From assembly GCF_000455605.1 (NCBI RefSeq), contig NC_017025.1, positions 2,418,001 through 2,482,000 of the forward strand: a stretch of DNA of 64,000 nucleotides, read 5' to 3'. The translations under genes and the position numbers were made by a program. Below are positions 1-33,237 of this stretch, one piece after another. How positions within the stretch are numbered: position 1 is the stretch's first letter; each line of letters begins with the position of its first letter. The notes beneath the pieces were generated by a model that worked only from the letters and a program-made list of their open reading frames with translations, had not been told where the DNA came from and made no database searches. Origin of the DNA: Flavobacterium indicum GPTSA100-9 = DSM 17447 (GTDB lineage: Bacteria > Bacteroidota > Bacteroidia > Flavobacteriales > Flavobacteriaceae).

Positions 1-1100
1 TTTGGAAATATTTTGCTAATATATTTATTAATTAATGTATTGCTATGCATGATAAAACCCGACATTTTAACTGGTTCAGCACCAATGGAACTTTTAATTT
101 CTAAAGCTGTTCTTCCAAAAATAATTTTATGAAAACCGTGCTCAATACCAAATTCGGTCATGTTGTATAACATATTCAAATACAACATTTTTTCTTTTTG
201 AACTTTATCATTATATCCTAAAAAGTACGTCTCTAAAACATCGCCATTTAATAAAACTGAATGAAACCCGACTAATTCTTCATGTATAAAATACCCAAAT
301 AATTTAAATCGGTGACCGCATTGTTTTTTAAAAACTGAAAAATGCTGTTGGTCTAGGAAAAAAGTATTAAAAGGCGCATTTTTTGCTACATAATAGTATA
401 AATCGTAAATCCTCTTTTCATTTTGAATTACCTCATCTAGCATTAATTCTTTTACTACAACACCATCAAATTTTTTTCTAGCTCTTTTGTATTGATCTCT
501 ATATTTTTTTGAAAAAGCCCCGATATAATCTTCTTTGGATTTCCAAGTATGAGGAATTGAAAATATCATATTAGGCTGGGTATTGAACTCATAAACTGAA
601 GCAAAATGATTCTTTTTCAATTCAACAGAACAGTGTTCATAAAAATCTTTAAAAGAAACAATATGAATTTTGATGCCTTTATTTTTAAAATAACCTTTAA
701 TAGCATCTGCCGATTGTAATAAAATTTCACTTATACTAGCAAAATCAATTTCTTTAGAAAAAGCATACCCGTTTTGCCCTGTAATCATATTATTTCCTAA
801 AAAAAGTACATGAGAAGCAAAATTCTTAAAAACAAAATTTCGAATCATGGTTTTAAAGCATTTATCCCGTTCTCCAAAAGATTCCAATTTATTTAAATCC
901 AAATATTGAGCTAATGCAACACCTATTAACGCTGTAGAATCAAAAATTCCAATATAAAAACATTCCATATTTGTGGGTGCTGAATTTTCTAACACTTTCA
1001 AATAAGGGGTTTGTAAAAAATGATTGGTATGAGCCACTTCATCCCAATTGGACGGCAGCTCCACAGTTTTTGAAAAGATTTTAAATGATAGGTTTTCCAA
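1..1100 (-). CDS. GNAT-like acyltransferase, 3' end cut by window
   Basis: The minus strand is open from a TTG codon at 1098-1100 to the left edge, about 366 residues without a stop, so the C-terminus is missing. The protein begins MENLSFKIFSKTVELPSNWD. It carries a C-terminal stretch FGRTALEIKSSIGAEP that resembles the acetyl-CoA-binding half of GNAT/FemAB-like proteins annotated as peptidogalycan biosynthesis or N-acetyltransferase in Flavobacteria. The start is a TTG with no ATG upstream in frame; the first internal ATG (968) would remove about 44 residues. It lies just downstream of the terminator of the next gene. Substrate unknown. Confidence 0.6.
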   Translation of the reverse strand, partial: MENLSFKIFSKTVELPSNWDEVAHTNHFLQTPYLKVLENSAPTNMECFYIGIFDSTALIGVALAQYLDLNKLESFGERDKCFKTMIRNFVFKNFASHVLFLGNNMITGQNGYAFSKEIDFASISEILLQSADAIKGYFKNKGIKIHIVSFKDFYEHCSVELKKNHFASVYEFNTQPNMIFSIPHTWKSKEDYIGAFSKKYRDQYKRARKKFDGVVVKELMLDEVIQNEKRIYDLYYYVAKNAPFNTFFLDQQHFSVFKKQCGHRFKLFGYFIHEELVGFHSVLLNGDVLETYFLGYNDKVQKEKMLYLNMLYNMTEFGIEHGFHKIIFGRTALEIKSSIGAEPVKMSGFIMHSNTLINKYISKIFP

Positions 1101-8629: not shown

Positions 8630-8659
8630 TTTGGTAATTAAAAAATAAAGTTACCTTTG
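8630..8659 (+). promoter_or_regulatory. rpsO promoter
   Basis: TTTG at 8630-8633 and TACCTTTG at 8652-8659 form a clear Bacteroidota promoter with an 18-nt spacer, about 55 nt before the rpsO start. Confidence 0.75.
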
Positions 8660-8713
8660 CACCCGTATTGAGAAACACTCAATTTACATAATAATTATTT
8701 AAGGAATATTAGC

Positions 8714-8983
8714 ATGTACTTATCAAAAGAGAAAAAAGCTGAAATTTTTGCAACTCATGGTGGAGCTGCAACTAACACAGGTTCAACAGAAGGACAAATC
8801 GCATTGTTTACTTTCAGAATCAACCACTTAACTGAGCACTTAAAAAGAAATCGTCATGATTACAACACTGAGCGTTCATTAGTGAAGTTGGTAGGAAAAA
8901 GAAGAAGTCAATTAGACTACTTAAAGAAAAAAGATATCAACAAATATCGTGAGATTCTGAAAACATTAAACATCAGAAAATAA
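8714..8983 (+). CDS. rpsO: 30S ribosomal protein S15
   Basis: The 89-residue protein has the normal S15 length and its hallmark sequences: GSTEGQIALFTFRINHLTEHLK, the RSLVKLVGKRRSQLDYLKKKD helix and a C-terminal YREILKTLNIRK. S15 is a primary 16S rRNA binder of the small subunit platform. It has its own promoter and terminator and lies upstream of pnp, the usual bacterial order in which S15 and polynucleotide phosphorylase are neighbours. Confidence 0.98.
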   Translation: MYLSKEKKAEIFATHGGAATNTGSTEGQIALFTFRINHLTEHLKRNRHDYNTERSLVKLVGKRRSQLDYLKKKDINKYREILKTLNIRK

Positions 8984-23633: not shown

Positions 23634-24650
23634 TCAATTGTCCTCATATTTAGCTAAAGCTTTTTGTATTATTTCATGCATTCTTTTTCTAAATCCATCT
23701 GGCTTAATAACCTCTAAACTACTTCCAAAACCTAATAACAATCGTTCTAATTCATAGTTAATTATTAAAAACAAATGTAGCAACACACTTCCATCTGGAT
23801 ACGTTTCGATTAGCCTTTGTGAACGATGTAGCGGTTTTGTCAATACATAAGGAGCATTTGCCGCATCTATTTTAATTTCGATTTTTCTTGCTTTTAATCC
23901 ATGATTTACTGTTACTCCTACAACATCTCTAAAATAGTATTCTGCATCAAAATTTTCCTCTAAATAATCCATTCCAAATTCAAAATCTACACTAACAATT
24001 CTGTCTAAAGCTAAATTCACAATTGGTTGACTTGCTTTTCTTCTTCCAATTAAAAACCAACGATTATTAAATTCTTTTAAAACAAATGGGTGAAAATAAA
24101 AAGAACTCGTTTCTAAGGCTTTAAAAGATTTATATTCTAATTTCAAAACTACTTTTTTAACAATTGCTTGATATAAAACATCTAAAAAATGTAACCCTTT
24201 CAAATTATCATTTTTATCCAAATGAATAATCGGTCGAGTATTCGATTTTTCGGCATAAATTTTATCTTCTAATCGTTGTAAAATATCTGAAACATCAGAA
24301 AACAACGAAAAATCTTTAAACTGCTTCAACATAGAAACCGTTTCGGTCAACACATTGATATCCGTTTCAGTAAGTGGAATATCTGTGATGGAGAAATCTT
24401 CCTCTGCATACCTATAATATTTTTTATCATATACTTCAATAGGTGCATTATATCCTAATTTTTCACTACGCATCATTTGAATATCCAACTGAATTGTTCG
24501 CTTGCTTACCGCATTTTCTTTACCTTCAAATTCATATAACGCATTTGAACAAGCTTCTATTAAATCATCCAATGTCCAGGTGCGGTATTTGTTTTGCAAA
24601 CATTTATCAATCGTTTTATATCGGATTAGAGCATTTTTATTTTGAGCCAT
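23634..24650 (-). CDS. WYL-domain transcriptional regulator of the RNA-repair island
   Basis: The 338-residue protein has an N-terminal winged-helix region (about 1-85; KNALIRYKTIDKCLQNKYRTW, VSKRTIQLDIQMMRSE) and a WYL domain (about 150-240; FHPFVLKEFNNRWFLIGRRK, with WFL in place of WYL). A WCX extension follows (about 260-335). WYL domains bind nucleic acids or nucleotides and control stress and defence genes. It lies 52 nt downstream of the HD gene, facing the leader/RING-TerD/rtcB block. I infer that it binds the two palindromes at 25352-25370 and 28038-28056. Whether it activates or represses cannot be told. Confidence 0.88.
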   Translation of the reverse strand: MAQNKNALIRYKTIDKCLQNKYRTWTLDDLIEACSNALYEFEGKENAVSKRTIQLDIQMMRSEKLGYNAPIEVYDKKYYRYAEEDFSITDIPLTETDINVLTETVSMLKQFKDFSLFSDVSDILQRLEDKIYAEKSNTRPIIHLDKNDNLKGLHFLDVLYQAIVKKVVLKLEYKSFKALETSSFYFHPFVLKEFNNRWFLIGRRKASQPIVNLALDRIVSVDFEFGMDYLEENFDAEYYFRDVVGVTVNHGLKARKIEIKIDAANAPYVLTKPLHRSQRLIETYPDGSVLLHLFLIINYELERLLLGFGSSLEVIKPDGFRKRMHEIIQKALAKYEDN

Positions 24651-24702: not shown

Positions 24703-25314
24703 TTACAGTAATGATATTTCCTTATTTATATTTTCTCTTGCTTGCTTCTCATATTTTGTTCTAAAAGTCTCTGTTTGATAGATAAATTCATTTTCTAAAA
24801 AATGCTCTAACGCCTTTCTTCGTCCTGGATTATAAAGTAAGTTGGGATAAATTTTATACTCTTTTCTTATTTGTTTGAAATACACTTCATAATCAATCCA
24901 TTCTTTAGATAAAATTTTCAAATCGAAATCGATTAACCAATTTATATCCGCTACTCTATTTTGTTGATGCATTTTTGTGGCCACTATCATATCATAAATC
25001 AATTCTTTATTAATCATTGTATGTTTTGGCAAAATAGAAACAGCATATTCGGCGCTTTTCAGTTCATTTTCTTTGCATGTTACTTTGTAAATGTAGTCAT
25101 GATAGAAAATAGCATACAAAACCTCAACAGGAAAAGTGAGTTGTGCATAATACATTTCATACTGCTCTATCATTTCTTTCAAATGCTTCAAATTATGATA
25201 ATACCTACTTTTTGCGGTATAGGCTTTTACCAAATTATTCCATAAAACCTCTATTTCGTTGTTATCGAAACCCAATTCTTTTAACAAAACAATGTATTTT
25301 TCTTTTAAATCCAC
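24703..25314 (-). CDS. HD-domain predicted metal-dependent phosphohydrolase
   Basis: The 203-residue protein has conserved histidines in SRYYHNLKHLKEM (about 37-48), the HD pair in IFYHDYIYKV (about 70-76), an acidic IVATKMH segment and a distal aspartate in NWLIDFDLKIL. These match a small HD-hydrolase family of predicted metal-dependent phosphohydrolases. It starts the divergent transcript that also carries the WYL regulator. Next to an RNA ligase, a role in trimming RNA ends or nucleotide signals is possible, but this is inference. Confidence 0.8.
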   Translation of the reverse strand: MDLKEKYIVLLKELGFDNNEIEVLWNNLVKAYTAKSRYYHNLKHLKEMIEQYEMYYAQLTFPVEVLYAIFYHDYIYKVTCKENELKSAEYAVSILPKHTMINKELIYDMIVATKMHQQNRVADINWLIDFDLKILSKEWIDYEVYFKQIRKEYKIYPNLLYNPGRRKALEHFLENEFIYQTETFRTKYEKQARENINKEISLL

Positions 25315-25328
25315 AACCTATTTTTTAT

Positions 25329-25360
25329 CAAATTTAAAATTTCTTTTTTACTGCGCAAAA
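25329..25360 (-). promoter_or_regulatory. Divergent promoter of the HD/WYL unit
   Basis: Read on the minus strand, TTTTG (25356-25360) and TAAATTTG (25329-25336) are 19 nt apart, a good Bacteroidota promoter. The start site would be about 8 nt before the HD gene. Its -33 element lies inside the palindrome at 25352-25370. Confidence 0.6.
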
Positions 25361-25370
25361 TAATTGCGTA
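25352..25370. promoter_or_regulatory. Palindromic operator, copy 1
   Basis: TGCGCAA-AATAA-TTGCGTA, a 19-bp inverted repeat with 7-nt arms (one mismatch) and a 5-nt spacer. It matches copy 2 at 28038-28056 in 18 of 19 positions. Both copies are followed 14 nt later by the TTTG of a shared box TTTGAAATCTTTG. It sits between divergent units and is the likely WYL-protein site. Confidence 0.75.
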
Positions 25371-25375
25371 GTGGT

Positions 25376-25388
25376 TTTGAAATCTTTG
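25376..25388 (+). promoter_or_regulatory. Shared TTTGAAATCTTTG box, copy 1
   Basis: TTTGAAATCTTTG is identical in front of rtcB (28062-28074) at the same distance from the palindrome. AATCTTTG resembles TAnnTTTG with one mismatch. The upstream TTG in the palindrome arm is 14 nt away, shorter than usual, which would fit an activator-dependent promoter. Confidence 0.5.
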
Positions 25389-25432
25389 TCAAGTCAAAAG
25401 GAAAAAACGTTCTTTGAATACAAAAAAATGTT

Positions 25433-25452
25433 GGTCAAGTAAAAGTTACTTC
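25433..25452 (+). repeat. 20-nt leader motif, copy R1
   Basis: First of four copies of GGTCAA-N7-TTACTTC. In R1 the part AAGTAA-AAG-TTACTT can form a small hairpin. It lies upstream of the tRNA-like element. Confidence 0.7.
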
Positions 25453-25503
25453 AGTTAACACCATCAGATAAAACTTTTACAATTATCAACATTTAAAAAA
25501 ATT

Positions 25504-25617
25504 GGGGCAGTAGCTCAGTGGTAGAGCAAGTAGTTTTGAAATTATCTTTTAGGTCAATCAAAACTTACTTCTACACTTTTAATGTCTGTGTCGTGGGTTC
25601 GAGTCCCACCTGCTCCA
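25504..25617 (+). ncRNA. tRNA-Lys(UUU)-like RNA with a 42-nt insertion
   Basis: The 5' and 3' ends form a full tRNA frame. The acceptor stem is GGGGCAG (25504-25510) with CTGCTCC (25610-25616) and discriminator A. The D arm is GCTC-AGTGGTA-GAGC (25513-25527) and the T arm GTGGG-TTCGAGT-CCCAC (25593-25609). The 3' half holds a Lys-type anticodon loop CTTTTAA (25576-25582) flanked by ACA/TGT, then a 5-nt variable loop GTGTC. Between position 26 (A25528) and the anticodon arm are 42 extra nucleotides (25529-25570), which contain motif R2 and can pair TTTTGA with TCAAAA. No CCA is encoded. It lies in the untranslated leader of the RING/TerD gene with no promoter of its own. The anticodon stem is poor (3 strong pairs), so I read it as a tRNA mimic, not a working tRNA. 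An alternative fold uses AGTAG-TTTTGAA as the anticodon arm. Confidence 0.7.
25552..25571 (+). repeat. 20-nt leader motif, copy R2
   Basis: GGTCAATCAAAACTTACTTC, lying almost entirely inside the 42-nt insertion of the tRNA-Lys-like element. Confidence 0.7.
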
Positions 25618-25625
25618 CAATTTTT

Positions 25626-25645
25626 GGTCAATAAAAACTTACTTC
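25626..25645 (+). repeat. 20-nt leader motif, copy R3
   Basis: GGTCAATAAAAACTTACTTC. Its last five bases (ACTTC) also form the 5' strand of the minihelix at 25641-25681. Confidence 0.7.
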
Positions 25646-25681
25646 AAATTGGTACTTGTGGTTCGAATCCACCTTTGAAGT
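25641..25681 (+). ncRNA. tRNA minihelix (acceptor plus T arm) mimic
   Basis: ACTTCAAA (25641-25648) and TTTGAAGT (25674-25681) form a perfect 8-bp stem. Inside it is a T arm, GTGG-TTCGAAT-CCAC (25658-25672), whose loop fits the universal TTCRANY consensus. The remaining 9 nt contain TTGGTA, as in a D loop. This is the top half of a tRNA without an anticodon domain. Confidence 0.65.
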
Positions 25682-25706
25682 TTATAAATTATCAGAAAAA
25701 AATTCA

Positions 25707-25726
25707 GGTCAAGTGTTTCTTACTTC
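25707..25726 (+). repeat. 20-nt leader motif, copy R4
   Basis: GGTCAAGTGTTTCTTACTTC, the last copy, 60 nt before the start codon of the RING/TerD gene. AAGT and ACTT can pair inside it. Confidence 0.65.
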
Positions 25727-25786
25727 AAAAACTCTTTAAGGTAGAAAACTAGAAGCACCATTATCTAATTAAAAAAAACAAACAAA

Positions 25787-28024
25787 ATGAAAAATGAATT
25801 ATTAAAAATCAGCTTGCGTCAAAACGCAGTTTTTATTCCTTCGGAATTAATTACAAATGAATTAAAAGAACTATCAGGAACAACTTCTATATTAGTTGCC
25901 AATGCTTCAAAATTAGGTTTTTCCTTTTCCGAACCTTTATTAAAAGCTATAAATAACTCAAATACAACTACAAAAACTGAAATTTTAGATACGTTAAAAA
26001 CTGCTTTAGGAACCAATAAAAACTGGACACCATTAGTAAAAGGGTGGAATGTTCCAACTTGTGAAACTCGTTTAGATCATATCATTACGCTTTTCGCAAA
26101 TATTTTTAAAACTAAAAACGGTACGACTTTAACTTGTGGTCATATTATTCCTGTAAACACTTTCCCATTAGAAAGATATAATGGATGTCCGTTTTGCGGA
26201 ACACCATTTGAATTTGGAAAAATTGAAAATTATAGTCAAGGAAGCAAATTAAAAGTTTTAGAATTATGGACGGAAGAAGAAATGAATCTTTTTTTCGAAA
26301 GTCTTTTAACTTCAAAAACGGTTTTAGATGCTACACAAATTGATAGTTTAAAAATTGCATTAAAAGTTTTAGATTTACCTAAAGTGGCAATCGGAATGAA
26401 AGAAACTTTAATGGTAGTTATTGATGAATTAATTGCACAAAATCAAACAGAAAAAGCGAATCAGTTTTTCACATCGCCACAAGACATTTTACGTTATTTA
26501 TGGTTTAAGAAAACTGGATTATTACAAATAACAGAGCCTAAAACGATTATTAATAGAACAAAAAACAATCATACCAATATTTTCTATCCTGCTGATGATA
26601 GCATTCAAACGAAGAAGATCACGCAAGCAGATTTAAAATTAAAATATTCAAGAAAAGAATGTTTGATGGTTGCTAATTGGTTAAACAACTTAGATCTAAA
26701 AACAGAAGCTATATGCGAAATGATGCATCCAAAAAGAGGAATGTGGGTTCGATTTATTCGTGCATTGAGATTACCAGAATATGCAAAAAGAAAAGGTTTT
26801 GAAAAATTAGCAGAAATATTAGATGTTTTTTACACTCAAAAATATGAGGTTTGGCAAGGACGAGTAAATTATTTCAGATTAAAATCTGATGTGGAAAATA
26901 CTTTTAAATTATTAAAACAAAGACCAGGATTATTTGCGCGTTCTTTATTTTCAAATATGCTTTGGTTTGGTGAAGAAGATACTATTAATGCCTTCACAGA
27001 AGTTATTGATAAAGTACCAGCACGATTGATTTTCACTTTAAACATGTATGCTCAAAATTATTTTGATGTTTCAACACAAAGAAGTGTAAAACCATTAGGA
27101 GGAACAACGAAAAGAATTCCTGCAAATCCAATTTTAAAACTTTATGACGAGAATCATTTAGAGCAAATGAAATTAAAAATTGAAGATTTGTGTGTTATCG
27201 CTATGAAAAGAAGATTTTCTGCTATTGAAAATAGTAACAAAAGTATTTATATCGACCCACAATTATTTAACATACCTGTTTCAATTGGAGATAGAAGTGA
27301 AAGCGTTCAAGATTTACCAGTGGCTTTGATGGGAACAAAATTCCCTGTGGAAGGAAATGAAATTCGATTGTTTATGCAATGGGGAAAAGACATGCCTGCA
27401 CAACATTTAGATATGGATTTAAGTTGTCATATTTCCTATGAATTTGGTTCAGATTTTTGCTCTTTTAGTAATTTATCAACTACTGGATGTAAGCATAGTG
27501 GAGATATACAAAGCATTCCAAACAAACTTGGAACTGCCGAATATATCAACATCAATCTTGATGAATTAACAAGAGCAGGAGCAAAATTTGTAACTTTTAC
27601 TTGCAATGCTTACAGCAATGGAGGTATTACTCCTAATTTAGTTGTAGGTTGGATGGATAGTCAATTTCCGATACATATTTCTAAAAGTACTGGAGTAGCA
27701 TATGATCCATCATGTGTGCAACATCAAATTAGAGTTACTCAAAACACTACCAAAGGATTAGTTTTTGGAGTTTTAGATGTAGCTAATAGAGAAATTATTT
27801 GGCTTGAAATGAGTTTTGGTGGTCAAATTGTTCAAGGATTAGATTATAAAGGTGTTCAAGCCATGCTTTCAAAATTGAAATCTAAATTAAATATTGGACA
27901 ATTATTATTATTAATAGCTGAAGTTCAAAATTTAGAAATAATTGATAATGAAAATGCAGATGAAGTTTACGATATGAAATGGGCTATGAATACAGCATTA
28001 GTCACTCAATTATTAGTTGATTAA
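25787..28024 (+). CDS. RING/TerD-like protein, MXAN_6230/SCO0854 family
   Basis: The 745-residue protein has a helical N-terminus and a RING-type zinc-binding motif (C117-G-H119, then C134-x-x-C137 in GCPFCGTPF). A long helical middle region follows (about 150-490; KECLMVANWLNNLDLKTEAICEMMHPKRGMWVRFIRALRL). The C-terminal domain (about 500-690) shows TerD-like features: HLDMDLSCHISYEFG, HSGDIQSIPNKLGTAEYINI and VVGWMDSQFP. This matches what I know as the MXAN_6230/SCO0854 RING-domain family, which occurs next to RtcB. It has no signal peptide and so is cytoplasmic. The long structured leader and the rtcB gene 114 nt downstream suggest it handles damaged or tRNA-like RNA, but the activity is unknown. 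Confidence 0.75.
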   Translation: MKNELLKISLRQNAVFIPSELITNELKELSGTTSILVANASKLGFSFSEPLLKAINNSNTTTKTEILDTLKTALGTNKNWTPLVKGWNVPTCETRLDHIITLFANIFKTKNGTTLTCGHIIPVNTFPLERYNGCPFCGTPFEFGKIENYSQGSKLKVLELWTEEEMNLFFESLLTSKTVLDATQIDSLKIALKVLDLPKVAIGMKETLMVVIDELIAQNQTEKANQFFTSPQDILRYLWFKKTGLLQITEPKTIINRTKNNHTNIFYPADDSIQTKKITQADLKLKYSRKECLMVANWLNNLDLKTEAICEMMHPKRGMWVRFIRALRLPEYAKRKGFEKLAEILDVFYTQKYEVWQGRVNYFRLKSDVENTFKLLKQRPGLFARSLFSNMLWFGEEDTINAFTEVIDKVPARLIFTLNMYAQNYFDVSTQRSVKPLGGTTKRIPANPILKLYDENHLEQMKLKIEDLCVIAMKRRFSAIENSNKSIYIDPQLFNIPVSIGDRSESVQDLPVALMGTKFPVEGNEIRLFMQWGKDMPAQHLDMDLSCHISYEFGSDFCSFSNLSTTGCKHSGDIQSIPNKLGTAEYININLDELTRAGAKFVTFTCNAYSNGGITPNLVVGWMDSQFPIHISKSTGVAYDPSCVQHQIRVTQNTTKGLVFGVLDVANREIIWLEMSFGGQIVQGLDYKGVQAMLSKLKSKLNIGQLLLLIAEVQNLEIIDNENADEVYDMKWAMNTALVTQLLVD

Positions 28025-28138: not shown

Positions 28139-29560
28139 ATGAACACACCCATAAACGGAAACGACTTAAAAGAACTAGGCTATCCTGAAGGAACTTTAGT
28201 AGGCTTAGCGTTACGAATTAACAAAAAAAGAAACGGATATAACAGAGAAGAAATGTTTATGCATTACAAAGCTGTTTTAGAACATCCAGAAAACTATATT
28301 GACGATAAAGTATTTAGCAAACTAGCTATTGCCATTATTGAAAAAGCCAATGAAAAACCAGAAGATTTCATTCAATTGAACAAAAATCCAAATGCATTTT
28401 CAGCTTACGGATTAGAAAATATTGAAGAAGGTGCTAGAAAGCAAATGGAAGTCGCGATGCAATTACCGGTGACAATTGCTGGCGCCTTGATGCCAGACGC
28501 ACATCAAGGTTATGGTTTGCCAATTGGTGGAGTTTTAGCCACAAACAATGCGGTTATTCCATATGGAGTGGGTGTTGATATTGGTTGCAGAATGGCATTA
28601 TCGGTTTATGATATTCCGGAATTCTTTTATTATGAAAACGAAGATAAATTTAAAAGAGAATTGATTGCGCACTCAAAATTTGGAGCCGGACATGGATTTC
28701 ATGGTCAGTACAAAAGTGATCATGCGGTATTAGAAAGCAACGTATTTAACGAAAATACTTTTGTGAAAAAATTAAAAGACAAAGCTTGGTCGCAATTAGG
28801 TTCTTCTGGTGGTGGAAATCACTTTGTAGAATTCGGAATTATGGAATTTGAAAAAGACGATGAGATTTTAAACATTCCAAAAGGAAAATACGTGGCACTT
28901 TTAACACATTCAGGTTCGAGAGGATTAGGCGCAACAATTGCTGGGCATTACACAAAATTAGCTAAAGACACGTGCAAATTACCAGAAGTAGCAAAAAACT
29001 TAGCCTATTTAGATTTGAATTCACAATTGGGACAAGAATATTGGTTGGCCATGAACTTGTCTGGTGATTATGCTTCGGCTTGTCATGAAGTGATTCATAC
29101 TAAAATGGAGAAAGCATTAGGTGCTACGGTTTTAGCGAAAGTAGAAAACCATCATAATTTTGCTTGGAAAGAAATGTACAATAACGAAGAAGTAATTGTA
29201 CATAGAAAAGGTGCTACTCCAGCAGCAAAAGGCCTCATGGGAATTATACCCGGAAGTATGACCGCACCAGGATTTTTAGTACGAGGAAAAGGCGAAGAAA
29301 ACGCCATCAACTCAGCTTCACATGGTGCAGGACGACAAATGAGCCGAACAAAAGCTATTAAATCCATTACGAAAACCGACATGCAAACCATCTTGAAAGA
29401 CCACGGTGTAACGTTGATTGGTGCTGGATTAGATGAAGCTCCAATGGCGTATAAAGACATCCATCAAGTGATGGCTGCCCAACAAGAATTGGTTGATGTA
29501 GTTGCCAAGTTTACTCCAAAAATGGTAAGAATGGCAGATGATGGAAGTCATGAGGATTAA
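28139..29560 (+). CDS. rtcB: RNA-splicing ligase RtcB
   Basis: RtcB joins RNA 2',3'-cyclic phosphate or 3'-phosphate ends to 5'-OH ends using GTP and Mn2+. The 473-residue protein keeps the family signatures: DAHQGYGLPIGGVLAT, GVDIGCRMAL (metal-binding Asp and Cys), SSGGGNHFVEFG, LTHSGSRGLGATIAGHY and SHGAGRQMSRTKAI, which contains the guanylylated histidine. I chose the ATG at 28139 (MNTPINGNDLKELGYPEG); an upstream start at 28097 would place the leader hairpin inside the coding region. No archease or RtcA gene is nearby. A copy of the palindromic operator precedes it, so it is induced together with the RING/TerD unit. Confidence 0.95.
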   Translation: MNTPINGNDLKELGYPEGTLVGLALRINKKRNGYNREEMFMHYKAVLEHPENYIDDKVFSKLAIAIIEKANEKPEDFIQLNKNPNAFSAYGLENIEEGARKQMEVAMQLPVTIAGALMPDAHQGYGLPIGGVLATNNAVIPYGVGVDIGCRMALSVYDIPEFFYYENEDKFKRELIAHSKFGAGHGFHGQYKSDHAVLESNVFNENTFVKKLKDKAWSQLGSSGGGNHFVEFGIMEFEKDDEILNIPKGKYVALLTHSGSRGLGATIAGHYTKLAKDTCKLPEVAKNLAYLDLNSQLGQEYWLAMNLSGDYASACHEVIHTKMEKALGATVLAKVENHHNFAWKEMYNNEEVIVHRKGATPAAKGLMGIIPGSMTAPGFLVRGKGEENAINSASHGAGRQMSRTKAIKSITKTDMQTILKDHGVTLIGAGLDEAPMAYKDIHQVMAAQQELVDVVAKFTPKMVRMADDGSHED

Positions 29561-32158: not shown

Positions 32159-32386
32159 AATTTAAAATTTTATAGTTTTGATTCCTACTCTATTGGCTTT
32201 TCGGTTCCGCCGTGTTAATAATGAATTGGCTAGCTTAAAATTCTAATGGTGAAATTATCAAGACGGAATGAGATAAATTATTATTTTGTAACAAAAACCT
32301 TCTTTTTAGGCATTTAAGTACGAAATTGAAGTATAAAAACATAAGAAAATTAATCATTTAAATTAAGCACAAAATAGGAACATAAT

Positions 32387-33071: not shown

Positions 33072-33144
33072 GATTTTGTAGCTCAACTGGATTGAGCATT
33101 CGTCTACGAAGCGAAAAGTTTAGGTTCGAATCCTAACAAAATCA
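33072..33144 (+). tRNA. tRNA-Arg(ACG), divergent
   Basis: All four arms are present. The acceptor is GATTTTG/CAAAATC with discriminator A, the D arm GCTC/GAGC, and the anticodon arm TTCGT-CTACGAA-GCGAA with ACG at 33106-33108. The variable loop is 4 nt and the T arm TTAGG-TTCGAAT-CCTAA. Length is 73 nt with no encoded CCA. The AT-rich acceptor is unlike a normal housekeeping Arg tRNA, so this may be an accessory or decoy copy. Confidence 0.75.
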
Positions 33145-33165: not shown

Positions 33166-33237
33166 GGCTCATTGTGGTAATGGCTAACCTACCCGACTGT
33201 CTCTCGGGTGCTACGGGTTGGATTCCCGTATGAGCCG
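33166..33237 (+). tRNA. tRNA-Asp(GTC)-like, degenerate
   Basis: The acceptor is GGCTCAT/ATGAGCC with discriminator G, which is the Asp identity base. The anticodon arm is CCCGA-CTGTCTC-TCGGG with GTC at 33199-33201, and the T arm is ACGGG-TTGGATT-CCCGT. Oddities are a three-pair D stem, G in place of the universal C56 in the T loop and a pyrimidine at position 37. It follows the Arg tRNA by 21 nt, so they are probably transcribed together. Confidence 0.6.

Follow-up and report, generated by a model that had tools for sequence, protein, structure and literature searches.

A tRNA interrupted in its anticodon stem is one unit of a hairpin RNA array beside a RING-TerD gene in Flavobacterium indicum

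Some RNA repair operons are accompanied by RNAs that resemble tRNAs. One report (PMC7790460) describes how YrlA, an RNA with a tRNA-like domain, is made beside the RNA ligase RtcB in rsr-yrlBA-rtcBA operons, suggests a role for it as a nuclease inhibitor, and treats the rtcBA operon as an RNA ligase response to tRNA damage. The present work concerns a 64,000-nucleotide (nt) stretch of Flavobacterium indicum GPTSA100-9 = DSM 17447 (NC_017025.1, positions 2,418,001 to 2,482,000 of the forward strand; "the window"), where a tRNA-like element at 25504-25617, interrupted by an insert, lies in the leader of an operon for a RING-TerD protein and RtcB and forms part of an array of RNA hairpins. To our knowledge, no described system combines an array, a tRNA carrying a structured handle and variable anticodons. 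The open literature that was searched, whose coverage leaves out most subscription papers and bioRxiv preprints, contained no description of an array of such anatomy.

By analogy, the closest known counterpart is the Ro60-Y RNA particle encoded beside rtcBA. Both the Ro60 (Rsr)-YrlA system and the window place a tRNA-like RNA beside RtcB, and the window protein may, going by its predicted fold, likewise offer a helical ring as an RNA-binding platform. Ro60 carries a vWA domain, whereas the window protein has RING and TerD domains and lacks TROVE by sequence. Unlike YrlA, the window RNA repeats one handle over several units, keeps its tRNA in normal order and shows variable anticodons, and no Y RNA family is found among the 15 Rfam matches (E <= 10) to window positions 25300-25800. 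Rfam presumably includes a bacterial Y RNA model. If the kinship with Ro60 holds, a stricter view could place the array within the Ro60-Y RNA kind.

Other described systems share single features with the locus. RtcR-controlled rtcBA is likewise an RNA ligase operon, and a Variovorax locus encoding a distant homologue of the window protein has rtcR nearby; the window differs in having a WYL-type protein, a palindrome and the RNA array (rtcA was not searched for). The RING protein itself is homologous to the MXAN_6230/SCO0854 RING family (NF041916), for which we know of no RNA partner. Introns in tRNA genes are of the group I type in bacteria and of the bulge-helix-bulge type in archaea, and they resemble the present case in that the interruption lies near the anticodon and the stem is complete once the insert is set aside; here, in contrast, the linkers vary, the insertion point moves and there is no group I match. 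Finally, anticodon nucleases such as PrrC and colicins D and E5 would cut loops like those displayed, but the anticodons of the array are too diverse for a single enzyme (nucleases were not searched for here).

An interrupted tRNA within an array of hairpins

The anatomy of the array is well supported, and the tRNA is one unit of this larger RNA. An Rfam scan places tRNA family RF00005 above its gathering cut-off at 25504-25617 (50.7 versus 29 bits, + strand); ARAGORN makes no call there. The acceptor stem, D arm, T arm, CTTTTAA loop, GTGTC variable loop and 42-nt insert are all as a preliminary description had given them, and the element departs from RF00005 in lacking an uninterrupted anticodon arm. 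Coordinates read on the window sequence put the insert at 25531-25572, where it splits the 5′ strand of the anticodon stem after the second nucleotide instead of preceding the whole arm, as first thought. Nor is that stem weak, since AG (25529-25530) and ACA (25573-25575) form five of five pairs with UGUCU across the insert. The lack of an encoded CCA finds no support as a telling sign; it is ordinary in the window, where the tRNA genes at 33072 and 33166 have none either. Two intact tRNA-Lys(TTT) genes occur in the same genome (60 matches in the tRNA search, 30 loci taken and ARAGORN run on 21), and the interrupted tRNA is therefore an extra copy. A tmRNA match in the leader falls below the Rfam cut-off (36.2 versus 47 bits). 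The group I intron was rejected as a candidate, as no such family is among the 15 leader matches.

The insert is one of four leader copies of a shared module. The motif GGTCAAN7TTACTTC occurs there at 25433, 25552, 25626 and 25707, the only perfect matches in the window; two mismatches admit two more window sites, and six matches at up to two mismatches were reached in 3 of 100 shuffles. A unit plan was derived from eight members of the genus and then from 122 leaders overall. Helix P0 ends in GGU, followed by CAA, one 8-nt strand of helix P1, UACUUC, a variable insert, the complementary 8-nt strand, HAUU, and AYC, which closes P0. The constant handle thus consists of P0, the internal loop CAA/HAUU, a P1 of 8 base pairs (bp) whose sequence is free, and UACUUC, with the variable RNA beyond P1. 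In the majority of units (type 1), the handle is joined to the flanking transcript through P0, and the insert occupies the distal end of P1. The tRNA unit (type 2) is permuted, so that a short loop caps P0 and P1 opens into the tRNA; the variable RNA lies at the same end of the handle in both types. Three units of the window leader are of type 1 and one is of type 2. Run against the whole genome, a hairpin model based on 51 units recovers the three of type 1 at E <= 1.3e-9, with a single match elsewhere (E 0.96).

Relatives share this arrangement. The 122 leaders of homologous genes are redundant, some species being present in both genome collections, and skewed towards close relatives (the 80 top-ranked of 406); tests were therefore run on distinct sequences. 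With the D arm required to be paired and the acceptor and T stems to be nearly complete, a search detected an interrupted tRNA in 114 of them, making 128 calls, or 123 after removal of five nested or false ones. At least two A strands, as the strands found by motif are called, lie within 1100 nt in 118 leaders; L018 and L019 have one, and L020 (Prevotella) and L023 (Niallia) none, although L020 has one degenerate copy by eye. Copy number by this motif ranges from 0 to 7. A looser definition of the A strand gives 580 cases; sorted with the help of pairing, 412 fall into type 1 and 125 into type 2, leaving 43 in neither. At L098, L100, L105 and L107, clusters of uninterrupted tRNA-like sequences were also seen by eye upstream of the palindrome, just before the array.

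The partner strands of the handle helix covary. A P1 partner 8-mer with seven or eight pairs precedes HATTAYC within 160 nt for 387 of 533 strict A strands, which were selected without regard to pairing, against 12.4 ± 3.7 when the 8-mer is shuffled. When 51 units (of 57 listed, preselected for P1 of at least 7/8 and P0 of at least 4) are aligned, 93.5% of cells pair, compared with 37-54% when slid, and seven of the eight P1 pairs have changed on both sides.

The tRNA stems covary too. Compensatory changes among relatives are found in the anticodon, acceptor and T stems, so that the element withstands the refutation test set by the preliminary description. Across the insert, 46 of 55 distinct anticodon arms pair at five of five positions; exchanging the 5′ segments under the same best-fit procedure gives 20.3 ± 2.3, with a maximum of 27 in 500 trials. 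The variants include GG+ACA/TGTCC, AG+ACA/TGTCT, GG+GCA/TGCCC, ATG+GC/GCCAT, ACG+GC/GCCGT, CCG+GC/GCCGG, TTGGA/TCCAA, CAGGA/TCCTG and CCAAC/GTTGG. Three of the nine arms that fail are nested T-arm readings and not real arms (L100, L105 and one of two at L106). Among the 46, the insertion follows stem nucleotide 2 in 29 arms, 3 in seven, 4 in two and 5 in eight, and the linkers between stem and module measure 1-10 nt on the 5′ side and 0-7 nt on the 3′ side, (1,2) being the commonest pair. Acceptor stems are fully paired in 20 of 22 distinct cases, with pair types swapped at several positions, and T stems in 10 of 11, counts that are preconditioned by a search requiring 6/7 and 4/5 pairs.

What the units display

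The RNA held by the handles differs between units: a T-arm hairpin in some, an anticodon stem-loop in others, a whole tRNA in the permuted one, and in many a sequence that matches none of these. A T-arm is present in 50 of the 194 distinct type-1 inserts that measure 18-60 nt (shuffling expects 0.09). Another 28 of the 144 inserts without one have a hairpin with a 4-bp stem and a 7-nt loop bearing U33 and a purine at 37, against 4.3 ± 2.0 in shuffled sequences; when A, C or G is required at position 33 instead, the counts are 4, 3 and 2, no excess over the shuffled 5.0, 3.3 and 2.2. The next-to-last unit of Flavobacterium-type leaders was picked out by its position alone, free of any sequence constraint; its 90 copies comprise 46 distinct inserts. 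A 4-bp/7-nt hairpin other than a T-arm is present in 36 copies, 35 of which have the stem CAAA/TTTG with nine different loops. U33 is present in six of these loops (31 of 35 copies) and missing in three (4 copies), and by copies the U33 loops correspond to Asp GUC 15, Gly UCC 10, Thr GGU 2, Leu UAA 2, Arg ACG 1 and Lys CUU 1. Entropies at positions 32-38 of this unit are 0.50, 0.68, 1.26, 1.46, 0.91, 0 and 0.99 bits.

The anticodon of the interrupted tRNA likewise changes from species to species. UUU is the commonest and UCU second, followed by GUU, GAU, UAU, CUU, CAU, GUC, ACG, UCC, UUC, UGG, AGG and more, and the other units add further ones. The proposed specificity for Lys(UUU) and PrrC is thus unsupported, because the anticodon varies between relatives, and a Lys/PrrC-specific decoy was rejected. 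Several Bacteroidota loci have a longer tRNA insert in which, by eye, a type-1 unit with a T-arm minihelix is nested (L098, L100, L102, L105, L106 and L117).

Outside Bacteroidota, distant homologues of the RING gene have hairpins of the same plan nearby, with another constant sequence, GGCU-A ... UUCCUUCU ... UUUCC. The Bacteroidota module pattern itself has no match in Deinococcus, parts of the Vibrio locus and Niallia, and architecture was compared instead. A UUCCUUCU-type pattern, written after the loci had been inspected, matches at 3 of 11 loci (two copies in Niallia, one in Vibrio and one in Streptomyces halstedii) and in none of 20 shuffled sets. More copies are seen by eye: a second in Vibrio, two in Variovorax, past the gene and a small open reading frame (ORF) behind it, two in Deinococcus L022 and one each in the Streptomyces loci L196 and L198. 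In Vibrio, Variovorax and Niallia the hairpins lie 3′ of the gene, and clear anticodon loops were recognized by eye outside Bacteroidota in Deinococcus L022 alone. The UUCCUUCU-type scan did not find the module in L194 and L195 (phages) or L197 (Deinococcus), and none of 33 pattern matches in viral contigs was confirmed as a relative of the RING protein. One gut phage fragment (L199, MT835874.1) encodes a distant RING-TerD homologue with two hairpins of the same plan, by eye, upstream of the match.

The RING-TerD protein and neighbouring genes

The preliminary description had placed the element in the leader of an RNA repair gene. The operon is indeed of the RNA repair type, but the gene directly 3′ of the array encodes the RING-TerD protein, and rtcB is second (Table 1). 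The 745-amino-acid (aa) protein is a homologue of the MXAN_6230/SCO0854 RING family (E 1.1e-34), although it scores below the NF041916 equivalog cut-off (119.8 versus 600 bits), and it has the TerD fold. For its middle domain, Ro60 is ranked top by predicted fold in one aligner, a resemblance that sequence comparison does not echo: PF05731 (TROVE) is absent from the Pfam matches of 30 family members at E <= 1, hhalign against four Bacteroidota TROVE proteins gives 0.2% (two of six TROVE loci yielded no filtered ORF), and a sequence search of solved structures with the window protein returned nothing up to E 1. PF05731 has no match in the F. indicum genome either. PADLOC reports WYL/Cas-type matches alone, every one on the WYL protein.

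Table 1. Features of the array and its operon in the window
Feature	Position	Strand	Remarks
Interrupted tRNA, anticodon UUU at 25578-25580	25504..25617	+	Rfam RF00005, 50.7 bits
Unit 1, type-1 hairpin	25430..25490	+	P0 GTTGGT/ATCAAC; CAA/AATT loop; P1 GTAAAAGT/ACTTTTAC; TACTTC; 20-nt insert; 56.6 bits by hairpin model
Unit 2, type-2 (permuted) module, the tRNA insert	25531..25572	+	Inside anticodon stem; order P1' AGTTTTGA, AATT, ATC, short loop, GGT, CAA, P1 TCAAAACT, TACTTC
Unit 3, type-1 hairpin with T-arm	25623..25696	+	T-arm GTGG-TTCGAAT-CCAC; 49.4 bits by hairpin model
Last pre-gene unit, type-1 hairpin	25704..25768	+	P1 GTGTTTCT/AGAAGCAC; has insert; 62.9 bits by hairpin model
Palindrome ACTGCGCAAAATAATTGCGTAGT, likely operator (putatively of the WYL-type regulator)	25350..25372	+	Core common among leaders
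AAATCTTTG, likely -7 promoter box	25380..25388	+	TTTG-type box pattern
745-aa RING protein	25787..28024	+	Weak Prok-RING_4 match; TerD fold ~520-692
Middle domain of the RING protein	residues ~152-506	+	Alpha-helical, Ro60-like predicted fold
RtcB-family RNA ligase	28139..29560	+	Pfam PF01139, 271.5 bits versus cut-off 27; listed ORF from TTG 28097
WYL/WCX-domain protein, likely regulator	23634..24650	-	Homologue in 55/84 longer loci
203-aa protein without Pfam match, conserved neighbour	24703..25314	-	Homologue in 52/84 longer loci

The RING family is large, with 4198 homologues at E <= 0.001 among 7996 candidates scored. Within the genus, the protein is found in 60 of 398 genomes (one weak, G557) and the hairpin RNA model, under strict filters, in 61 of 398 (two weak, G553 and G660); comparison of the lists gives 59 shared genomes. 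Each of the weak pair G553 and G660 has a single hairpin-model match (E 1.6e-4 and 3.2e-4), and the RING gene was not found there. In samples of the phylum (395 and 390 genomes searched), the RING and RNA searches name the same 11 genomes. These provide no independent test, since all 11 come from this one genus and the genus sample already contains at least five of them. Homologues of rtcB lie in 38 of 84 longer loci, three at 27-30% identity, and among 53 genus genomes that lack the RING gene, 19 have rtcB as well. Judged by this co-occurrence, the array tracks the RING-TerD gene more closely than it tracks rtcB.

The remaining elements suggest a switchable operon. Of the 122 leaders, taken at lengths up to 1500 nt, 115 contain a palindrome core [AG]CGCA-N4-8-TGC (a raw pattern count without shuffled baseline). 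A stricter palindrome pattern is found in 113, and in 110 of these a TTTG-type box follows, by a loose pattern also without shuffled baseline; we take AAATCTTTG to follow the Bacteroidetes -7 promoter consensus. The palindrome precedes the first unit in the window and in most listed cases, and in L106, L108 and L115 it also, or only, follows. The divergent WYL protein may control the operon, and the 203-aa neighbour might be an HD-type phosphohydrolase.

Several other RNA features were observed in this genome. At 33166-33237 of the window, beside a tRNA-Arg(ACG), stands an odd gene resembling tRNA-Asp(GTC) whose D arm is unusual; two further tRNA-Asp genes were noted in this genome. Known Rfam elements in the window are, in this order, an S15-Flavobacteria leader (8652-8716) and a DUF805b RNA (32182-32213). 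Outside the window, at C1:2494200-2496200 (L171), copies derived from tRNA-Gly(UCC) stand in tandem, two normal ones followed by several more at a spacing of about 180 nt. The later copies have a hairpin CTCGTTACGTGTAACGAG in the T-arm region, and the genome's tRNA matches include seven such places.

Proposed bait display and its alternatives

The conserved handle, its covarying helix, the tRNA parts with varying anticodons and the tight linkage to the RING-TerD gene are established by sequence comparison; from them we infer steps of binding, cutting, sensing and repair. The RING protein, through its middle domain with the Ro60-like predicted fold, would bind the handles and form a ribonucleoprotein particle (RNP). 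The tRNA parts would be baits that mimic the targets of tRNA-cutting RNases, such as toxins or the anticodon nucleases of phage or host, and the handle in the anticodon stem would bar the bait tRNA from translation. Anticodons would vary between species because the attackers vary. The divergent WYL regulator would switch the operon, cut baits or tRNAs would be sensed or held by the RNP, and RtcB would seal them where it is present. That the array belongs with the RING-TerD protein encoded just 3′ of it, and that their RNP displays inducible tRNA baits with repair nearby, we put forward jointly and tentatively, as a reading that falls just short of an even chance. It would account for the different tRNA parts shown side by side, for stems that are kept while anticodons change, for an arm placed where it would keep the tRNA from translation, and for the nearby RNA ligase and likely switchable promoter. 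More doubtful is the wider proposal, that a Ro60-like RNP of RING-TerD proteins, found across phyla, carries an encoded, diversifying library of tRNA baits, senses or absorbs tRNA-cutting toxins and starts RNA repair, and equally so its account of the library as whole tRNAs with a handle, anticodon stem-loops and T-arm minihelices.

Several observations and controls temper the case. The other 116 of the 144 inserts without a T-arm show no anticodon loop either, and baits leave them unexplained; in the next-to-last unit an anticodon loop is seen in only 35 of 90 copies, 54 copies having no such hairpin. Regarding the helix, 8-mers drawn from a pool of all those in the same leaders still find 187 ± 12 partners of 533, because unit types recur between leaders, and the preselection of the 51 aligned units inflates their pairing. 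The zero obtained by shuffling for the UUCCUUCU-type pattern is no independent test, given that the pattern was written afterwards. Furthermore, cut products of YrlA were reportedly not detected (PMC7790460).

An alternative that we consider unlikely, yet deserving of attention, is a scaffold in the manner of Ro60 and Y RNA, in which a tRNA-mimicking RNA would provide a platform on which RNA is degraded or repaired, without acting as bait, and the anticodon would drift neutrally. It would fit the predicted fold of the middle domain, the tRNA-like domain of bacterial YrlA beside rtcBA (PMC7790460) and a described RNA repair platform in which TROVE has a tRNA-like partner (PMC7824862). Drift of the whole arm, however, would not give an anticodon stem that is compensated and a position 37 that is invariant while positions 34-36 vary, and differing tRNA parts side by side also speak against it.

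Rather improbable is a new type of tRNA intron, excised and followed by sealing of the halves by RtcB to give an auxiliary tRNA, with type-1 units releasing their inserts, perhaps as circles. Removal of the insert does restore a 5-bp stem and 7-nt loop in the 46 of 55 arms, the second gene is the ligase, and P1 joins both edges of the insert. Against this stand the variable linkers (though (1,2) is commonest), an insertion point that shifts among stem nucleotides 2, 3, 4 and 5, the many loci with no rtcB nearby and the greater abundance of the tRNA-free module (412 type-1 versus 125 type-2 strands); moreover, an anticodon change on a similar body would risk mischarging. We give still less credence to a cis-regulatory leader, whose hairpins would set the expression of the RING and rtcB genes, for example through autoregulation by binding of the RING protein. 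The array does lie between the likely promoter and the ORF in the window, but hairpins 3′ of the gene in Vibrio, Variovorax and Niallia, a copy number of 0 to 7, and tRNA processing enzymes that would cut at the tRNA ends all argue otherwise. A decayed tRNA gene or a random insertion of a small repeat, for which an insert within a tRNA and a repeated module might be cited, is scarcely credible and is rejected because 114 of 122 leaders conserve the interrupted tRNA, whose stems show compensatory changes.

Should the wider proposal hold, the array would represent an RNA-based surveillance against attack on translation. The array offers a candidate RNA partner for a large protein family of unknown function. 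It also shows tRNAs whose anticodon stem bears an additional structured arm, the stem being kept by compensation. Finally, it points to bait-based sensing of tRNA-cutting toxins as a possible means by which an RNA repair operon learns that tRNAs are being cut.
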